From the NCBI RefSeq assembly GCF_002584535.1, contig NZ_NUOT01000008.1:516996-580995 (forward strand): a DNA stretch of 64,000 nt. The letters are read 5' to 3'. The stretch comes from Bacillus cereus (lineage in GTDB: Bacteria; Bacillota; Bacilli; Bacillales; Bacillaceae_G). A model generated the notes under the pieces. The model was not told the DNA's origin. It ran no database searches and saw only the letters and a program-made list of their open reading frames with translations. Every line of letters begins with the position of its first letter. The stretch's first letter is position 1. A program made the position numbers and the translations under genes. Shown piece by piece: positions 55,650 to 56,840 of this stretch.

Positions 55650-55678
55650 TTTCACAAAGAAACTATGCGGTAAATGTG

Positions 55679-55713
55679 AAACGTGCTTATCCAATATTCG
55701 GATAAGTACGTTT
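55679..55713 (-). terminator. Hairpin after the CHAT-like gene
   Basis: AAACGTGCTTATCC and GGATAAGTACGTTT form a 14-bp stem with one G-U pair at the stop codon. The T-run is weak, so termination efficiency is uncertain. Confidence 0.65.
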
Positions 55714-56249
55714 CATTCTCTATATAATTCAAATGTCAAAGTCTCATCATCTAATAATTTCGCATCTTGAAATGCATCATCTATTGTTTTTTGATGATTA
55801 ATAAGCCCGTAAAATAAACGTATTGTAAACATAAGTGCTGCATTTCCATCCACATAATCTGTTGAGCCTATATAAACTTTTACACCACTATTTAAAAATG
55901 CTGTTGCAAGTTTTGGATCTCCTAAAGTACACCCGCTATTGATAATATACTTGTTATGCAATTTTGCATATTGTTTAATTTCAGCTACACCAAAGTTCCC
56001 TCTTGGTTCATCTTCTTCATATATATCTTCCCCTAATTCCCCCATTACAAATTCGCCTTCTTCACCATGAAAGCAAAAAATAATATAATCCATATCTTCA
56101 TACAAACTTTTCCCCGAAAGAACATCCATCAAATCTTGCGGTCGACCAATCCAATATGTAATAACTCTTGCTCCAAAATACTCAAGCGTCGCTCGAAGCG
56201 ATTGTGCTTCTAAATCTGAATTATCGCCAACTACTAATGCAATATTCAA
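55713..56249 (-). CDS. CHAT/caspase-like putative cysteine protease (stand-alone)
   Basis: This 178-residue protein is not assigned by me to any named Bacillus family. Its layout fits a clan CD (caspase/CHAT) fold: strand NIALVVGD, then DYIIFCFHGEEGEF with a candidate catalytic His61, then KYIINSGCTLGD with candidate Cys107, then LATAFLNSGVKVYIGSTDYVD and AALMFTIRLFYGLI, which closely follow the CHAT C-terminal pattern. No TPR or other partner domain is present. The start is a TTG at 56249, eight bases after GGAGG that overlaps the end of the phosphatase gene, so translation is coupled. Protease activity is inference. Confidence 0.75.
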   Translation of the reverse strand: MNIALVVGDNSDLEAQSLRATLEYFGARVITYWIGRPQDLMDVLSGKSLYEDMDYIIFCFHGEEGEFVMGELGEDIYEEDEPRGNFGVAEIKQYAKLHNKYIINSGCTLGDPKLATAFLNSGVKVYIGSTDYVDGNAALMFTIRLFYGLINHQKTIDDAFQDAKLLDDETLTFELYRE

Positions 56250-56264
56250 ATAAAAAACCTCCAT

Positions 56265-56840
56265 TCATACGTTTATTTCATACACACCTGTTTCTTCTAA
56301 AAAATCCTCTCTTGTTAATCTCTGCTTTTGTAAATATTGTCTATATGCTGTAATTGTTCCATCATGGGAAACGATGCAGATCCTTGCAACCTTTAATGTA
56401 TAACACCAATTGATAAATTCATCTGCTCTATTCTGAAATTTCTTCTCTGAAATCGTATTTATTCCCTGATTCCATAACATATCGTTTGTACTTTCTCTTA
56501 AAGAAAAACTAGGAAATAACTCTTGGATTACCTTTGTACTTAACAACCTGTCACATGGTAATGTTCTTGCTCCTTCACGATAAGGAAAAATATGCGGGGA
56601 AATATACGGATGTGTTATTTTGCGGCAAACTACTTGTGAGCTCCATATCGCTGCAGTTTGTAATGTTCGAAGCGTAGGGCTTGCGATTAATACATCATTT
56701 TCTTGTAGTGGTAAACTGCTTTGAAGTAACAATGCTTGTTTTTCGCCTTCTTCTGTTAAAGGTGGATTTTCTAATTGCAAGCTCATAGGTAAATCTTTTG
56801 TATGTTTCCCTTCACCATGTCTTATGAAAATAAGTTTCAT
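56265..56840 (-). CDS. Histidine phosphatase family protein
   Basis: This 191-residue protein has the phosphohistidine motif FIRHGEG (H8), the second Arg in ASPTLRTLQTA, an acidic proton donor in PYREGARTLP and the distal His in CIVSHDGTI. It belongs to the broad phosphoglycerate mutase-like superfamily; the substrate is unknown and it is not a glycolytic mutase by length. AGGAGAG precedes the ATG. Its stop is followed after 15 bases by the CHAT-like gene, whose binding site overlaps its end. Confidence 0.88.
   Translation of the reverse strand: MKLIFIRHGEGKHTKDLPMSLQLENPPLTEEGEKQALLLQSSLPLQENDVLIASPTLRTLQTAAIWSSQVVCRKITHPYISPHIFPYREGARTLPCDRLLSTKVIQELFPSFSLRESTNDMLWNQGINTISEKKFQNRADEFINWCYTLKVARICIVSHDGTITAYRQYLQKQRLTREDFLEETGVYEINV

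Follow-up and report, generated by a model that had tools for sequence, protein, structure and literature searches.

The window analysed here, a stretch of 64,000 nucleotides from Bacillus cereus (contig NZ_NUOT01000008.1, positions 516,996 to 580,995), carries two abutting open reading frames (ORFs) on its minus strand. The upstream one (56265..56840, 191 residues) encodes a histidine phosphatase of branch 1, which matches the Pfam profile PF00300 at 53.8 bits (cut-off 21.7), and the downstream one (55713..56264) encodes what is, by its predicted fold, a stand-alone clan CD (CHAT/caspase-like) peptidase with a putative His66/Cys112 dyad. A preliminary description of this locus had reported both genes, and the ORF list and the sequence bear it out, with the peptidase start abutting the phosphatase stop. 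It had also let the ribosome-binding site of the peptidase gene overlap the end of the phosphatase gene. Here it needs correction, since the GGAGG Shine-Dalgarno sequence (56258..56262, minus strand) sits 2 nucleotides behind the stop codon, outside the coding sequence; the translational coupling to the phosphatase that this arrangement had suggested stays plausible. Directly after the phosphatase TGA (56267-56265) the window reads ATGGAGG, so that the GGAGG overlaps the nominal ATG start at 56264, which gives 183 residues, and stands 8 nucleotides ahead of a TTG at 56249, which gives 178. Because this spacing fits the TTG, the 178-residue product is the likelier protein. Residues are numbered below in the 183-residue form, and H66 and C112 correspond to H61 and C107 in the shorter one.

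Fold and putative catalytic dyad of the peptidase

The AlphaFold model of the peptidase is one compact domain with a mean predicted local distance difference test (pLDDT) score of 94.5 and the alpha/beta fold of the caspase-like proteins of clan CD. Its best structural match by VIA-align belongs to this clan, and the 50 matches listed are, by their titles, clan CD peptidases, inactive kin of these or their complexes, with the anti-sigma factor DdvA as the exception. In the clan CD arrangement the catalytic His follows strand 3 and the Cys follows strand 4. The model places His66 (FHGEEG; codon 56067..56069, minus strand) after a strand at residues 60-64 and Cys112 (NSGC; codon 55929..55931, minus strand) after a strand at residues 106-109, which is the dyad placement of the clan.

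Conservation points the same way. His66, Gly67, Gly111, Cys112 and Gly115 are invariant in all 41 rows of an alignment made up of the window protein, locus L001 and 39 of the 40 loci of a genome scan (L038 was excluded as broken), and His66 and Cys112 are kept together in 74 of 74 distinct near-full-length relatives. The latter are the distinct matching segments, among 79, that cover at least 130 of the 184 positions, with later loci added and eight viral pattern loci excluded. From fold and dyad we infer a catalytic role for His66 and Cys112. The preliminary description had called the product a stand-alone CHAT/caspase-like protein that keeps the His and the Cys and has no TPR or effector domain, and each of these points holds, clan membership by predicted fold though the Pfam CHAT cut-off is not reached. 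The CHAT profile itself (PF12770) speaks against the assignment, as it scores 15.4 bits against a cut-off of 24 and covers the C-terminal part only; at E <= 1 it matches three of the 41 family members. No NCBIfam model matches the window peptidase, and a search of the PDB by sequence alone returned no meaningful match.

CHAT domains are usually, not universally, fused to a TPR, SAVED or other sensor domain. None is present in the single-domain model, and most relatives are about 180-195 residues long. The CHAT peptidases SAVED-CHAT (8tl0) and TPR-CHAT/Csx29 of the type III-E clustered regularly interspaced short palindromic repeats (CRISPR) system (7y85, 8eex) are chains of 473-724 residues with added sensor parts, whereas the window peptidase is a single domain of 178-183 residues for which no conserved partner was seen and which scores under the Pfam CHAT cut-off. 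Separase, gingipain RgpB, legumain and the caspases, all of clan CD, share 7-16% identity with the window peptidase over the aligned parts, and in contrast to them no pro-domain or regulatory subunit was found for it.

Relatives and their distribution in spore formers

A two-row alignment, used in one scan of genome contigs, returned 40 related loci at 45-59% identity in the best segment, and the peptidase ORF is therefore not a chance ORF; a further copy lies on a plasmid of Priestia filamentosa. The family is patchy in Bacillus-, Paenibacillus- and Brevibacillus-type spore formers. Among sampled genomes, at E <= 0.001 and with seed genomes, distant kin and fragments counted in, matches occur in 12 of 299 genomes from the order of a Priestia endophytica genome, in 24 of 198 from the order of a Paenibacillus genome (G005) and in 20 of 39 from the order of Brevibacillus porteri. 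The 24 comprise 9 genomes with the close family, 8 with a distant family only and 7 with partial or fusion matches only. A tree of 57 proteins contains a 30-row clade (support 93/86, not starred) and a 22-row Bacillaceae-type clade, and the window protein stands on a long branch outside both, its placement unsure.

The distant family (L064-L071, with L064 intermediate) is likewise stand-alone, belongs to the Paenibacillus-side order, carries HGDKGG ... TACSAG with the His/Cys dyad kept and matches the family profile at E about 1e-28 to 2e-27; neither L064 nor L065 has a Pfam CHAT match. Another protein (L073, 790-3234, minus strand), large and apparently exported, matches the family weakly in its C-terminal part and keeps the THG and GSC motifs, by which it is possibly a secreted clan CD peptidase; at E <= 0.1 the L073 piece matches nothing in Pfam. 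Several copies of the peptidase or of its distant kin are broken or truncated (L038, L052/L054, L072, L074, L114), which fits an accessory, dispensable function. A viral origin of the peptidase was rejected, because a scan of viral contigs gave 14 pattern stretches and zero peptidase relatives, and phages gave no match.

A leader with a short upstream reading frame in one clade of relatives

Many Paenibacillus- and Brevibacillus-type copies carry a leader upstream of the peptidase gene, 27 such leaders in total. It consists of a Shine-Dalgarno sequence and a putative upstream open reading frame (uORF) of 3-8 codons ending in TAAC, 85-108 nucleotides before the gene, followed some 30-40 nucleotides after the TAAC by a CCTCC that pairs with the gene's own GGAGG. 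The uORFs would encode MKK, MIKK, MTTN, MKPNKK, MIRDQM, MKITIL, MISKHL and other peptides. Of 18 leaders, 17 hold a putative uORF with its Shine-Dalgarno sequence, where mononucleotide shuffles of the 60 nucleotides before the stop give one in 1.6% on average, and nine of nine further leaders from the Brevibacillus order hold one too; by eye, the leader was recognised in 14 of the 19 upstream stretches of one set (five from genomes already counted). A model built from 14 leaders, with E-values that apply per genome and are roughly calibrated, as for all leader models here, found the leaders of three Priestia-side-order genomes at E 1.9e-11, 7.6e-11 and 2.5e-8 and locus L058 at 5.4e-4. All four matches lie exactly ahead of a peptidase gene, and the next ones (E 0.11 and above) look like chance. 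Run over 64 sources, the first model returned its training leaders as 18 full-length matches, the other six matches being antisense echoes of the same hairpins.

The predicted stem of six pairs, which would bury the Shine-Dalgarno sequence of the gene, is paired in 94.0% of cells, compared with 41-57% when slid (29 leaders, 27 of the peptidase and 2 of other genes, 28 of them distinct). Stem length in single sequences was rejected as evidence for the hairpin: across 18 leader loci, between 0 and 31 of 40 shuffles had a stem as long (no more than 2 of 40 at 6 of the loci), and in 6 of the 18 the longest stem is one other than CCTCC/GGAGG. The hairpin is supported by its recurrence and by a single covarying pair.

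Several observations count against, or narrow, translation control by this hairpin. Three of the six pairs are invariant, being the Shine-Dalgarno sequence itself, and only the sixth changes on both sides, which it does in 7 rows, while 5 of the 28 rows leave it unpaired. Two of five stem measures are not above shuffles, namely the count of covarying pairs (reached by 435 of 500 shuffles) and that of further pair types (by 199 of 500), and the leader rows include close relatives, which are not independent. We found no alternative, open form of the leader, and by eye no shared alternative fold. The leader is also absent from the window copy and from all 22 rows of the Bacillaceae-type clade, and all 18 leader rows of the 57-protein tree fall within the 30-row clade (18/30). 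Consequently, translation control of this kind would be a property of one clade.

No Rfam family reaches its gathering score over the leader in 11 loci, and none of the LexA, CtsR, SigB, SigW and HrcA motifs occurs in the last 200 nucleotides of 61 upstream stretches. Eight viral contigs (L089-L096) match a leader-like pattern, GGGCYCGACCNCCTCC...GGAGG, which may be chance.

Genome-wide leader searches kept the best 13-21 candidates per genome under strict filters, so leaders can have been missed. The 198 Paenibacillus-side-order genomes gave three strong matches, all ahead of the peptidase, and three weak ones besides, and the 299 Priestia-side-order genomes gave six matches to the first model at E <= 0.001: three peptidase leaders, one match ahead of an ANT(6)-like gene, one ahead of a hydrolase gene and one inside an ORF. 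The ANT(6)-like product matches models of aminoglycoside 6-adenylyltransferases (NF033084 at 3.1e-93 and 312 bits, below the cut-off of 420) and its leader holds the uORF MKKNLTGL; the hydrolase is of the proline-iminopeptidase family, with the uORF MRYCNKPFH. A third model, built with these two leaders included, found a second ANT(6)-like gene (E 1.1e-5) with its own uORF, MKKVFVKL; the frame of the gene stops after 74 codons, and the piece matches NF033084 at 4.3e-25. A similar leader is thus seen ahead of two ANT(6)-like genes, of which one is truncated by an early stop, and ahead of a hydrolase gene (L120, L121, L125). Because the uORF start and its Shine-Dalgarno sequence lie outside the models, the uORF at these three non-peptidase matches is independent support, and it is possible, judging from sequence, that the uORF/hairpin unit is a general drug-response leader. 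Other candidates were dismissed: L086-L088 as partial model matches, L122 as lying inside an ORF by eye, and L126 and L127, with ORFs of 21 and 55 residues, for having neither a stop TAAC at the model start nor a uORF.

The nearest likeness is the vmlR leader of Bacillus subtilis, in which a Met-Ile-Asn uORF and a hairpin at the Shine-Dalgarno sequence help lincomycin to induce the resistance factor VmlR, the natural uORF variants MDN and MDK being equally good and MRK less so (PMC9226507). The leader of the peptidase relatives shares with it a tiny, here putative, uORF and a hairpin that would sequester the Shine-Dalgarno sequence of the main gene, whereas vmlR additionally has a transcription terminator and the relatives' leaders have their own conserved TAAC ... 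CCTCC and stand ahead of a peptidase. A second likeness is toiL of the Escherichia coli topAI-yjhQ toxin-antitoxin operon, a uORF proposed to sense at least five drug classes (PMC12121999). It resembles the relatives' leader, by description only, in its uORF, in a buried ribosome-binding site, which in the relatives too may open, and in a non-resistance gene downstream, and differs in host and in the kind of protein encoded.

Readings of the peptidase family and the surroundings of the window genes

Since the leader has the architecture of translation attenuation, we favour the reading that in the leader-bearing clade this peptidase family responds to translation stress, which seems to us rather probable by analogy with the known attenuators. 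In leader-bearing relatives the hairpin would keep the peptidase off, and stalling or slowing of ribosomes on the uORF would allow it to be made, as for vmlR or toiL-topAI; the peptidase could then answer the stress by cleaving proteins of the cell, or else a drug or products of that drug. The fuller proposal, of a caspase-fold protease that ribosome stalling would induce by way of an attenuator also found ahead of aminoglycoside-resistance genes, and that would serve protective or suicidal cleavage or the destruction of a ribosome-targeting peptide drug, is tentative, and we lean slightly against it in this complete form. The window copy is a diverged member, an enzyme without the leader whose expression would depend instead on coupling to the phosphatase in front, and its trigger may differ. 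The suggestion, made when the locus was first described, that the two genes form an undescribed stress module fares unevenly: it gains independent support from the uORF leader of many relatives, a leader that the window copy does not have, and none from a phosphatase pairing in the loci examined. The known bacterial caspase-like proteases are for the most part large, with a sensor as fusion part or partner that often belongs to a CRISPR system. A minimal one for which no partner was seen, with a leader like that of a resistance gene, would, if the reading is true, link regulated proteolysis to ribosome stalling, and the leader motif, being searchable, may lead to other drug-responsive genes of spore formers. 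Among titles and abstract starts of open-licence PubMed Central papers we found no stand-alone CHAT protease under a uORF leader.

The arrangement in the window invites a different explanation, a conserved two-gene signalling module in which protease and phosphatase act on one pathway: the peptidase starts directly after the phosphatase stop, as is typical of translational coupling, and the phosphatase is a sound match to its profile. A survey of co-occurrence refutes this as a family-wide feature, and with it the conserved unit foreseen at the outset. A tblastn search of the flanks fetched for 41 other peptidase loci, most of them reaching 6 kb to either side, found a phosphatase homologue at 0 of 41 (best E 0.097 over 23 residues), and the homologues present in 4 of 37 searched peptidase-carrying genomes are all unlinked, lying either on a different contig or some 700 kb off. 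Clustering of neighbour ORFs, which lists by number only clusters of three or more loci and for which tblastn served as the direct check, gave a single family above 5 loci (12 loci, several copies). A phosphatase homologue on a Planococcus plasmid has no peptidase annotated beside it, and the plasmid has no peptidase match. The best DNA match to the window among the 299 sampled genomes is 72% over one gene, and in the family of that genome a partial phosphatase match occurs in 1 of 19. Near kin of the window may well keep the two genes together, and the phosphatase looks like a local neighbour rather than a family-wide partner; we consider a shared signalling module improbable.

More weight, if still on the unlikely side, belongs to a role in defence or cell death, in which a caspase-like suicide protease would be freed upon a shutdown of translation by a phage or toxin. 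The leader would sense just such an arrest, some CHAT proteases of solved structure are CRISPR-linked by their titles, and patchy distribution, broken copies and a plasmid copy fit accessory defence genes; yet the family has no conserved partner or sensor domain, PADLOC assigns no family to the window protein (two of its models each match a single one of the 41 members, at E 2.2e-4 at best), and no defence model occurs in more than 3 of 80 neighbour ORFs (of 131 listed). The strong defence matches among these 80 are single ones (Csx1, WYL, Cas12f-type, AriA and others), and no known defence family recurs among them, in keeping with the first description, which set the locus apart from any defence island. 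A leader common to ANT(6)-like genes and a hydrolase could also mean that the peptidase breaks down a peptide antibiotic aimed at the ribosome, or a by-product arising from the action of that drug, but nothing found supports such a substrate, and known clan CD peptidases cleave proteins at specific sites, which leaves this a slim prospect. A clan CD domain with an ordinary housekeeping role, or a degenerate one, that binds without proteolysis would explain the very small size, the lack of a recognised activation segment and the CHAT score below the cut-off; against it, the His and the Cys are kept throughout the 74 relatives, which include the distant family and reach down to members whose match to the family profile is no better than E 1e-31 to 2e-27, although one or the other should have been lost in some lineages had the domain been a non-catalytic binder, and we regard it as very improbable. 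Translation stress in the leader-bearing clade remains the reading that we prefer.

A Pfam scan of seven neighbours in the window found no defence-like genes among them; they include a DoxX protein, an alpha/beta hydrolase, a GNAT acetyltransferase, an alkaline phosphatase and an aromatic amino acid hydroxylase. An inverted repeat (TGAAACGTGCTTATCC / GGATAAGTACGTTTCA) was seen by eye where the peptidase gene has its 3' end, at window positions 55677-55715; it was not called as a terminator.
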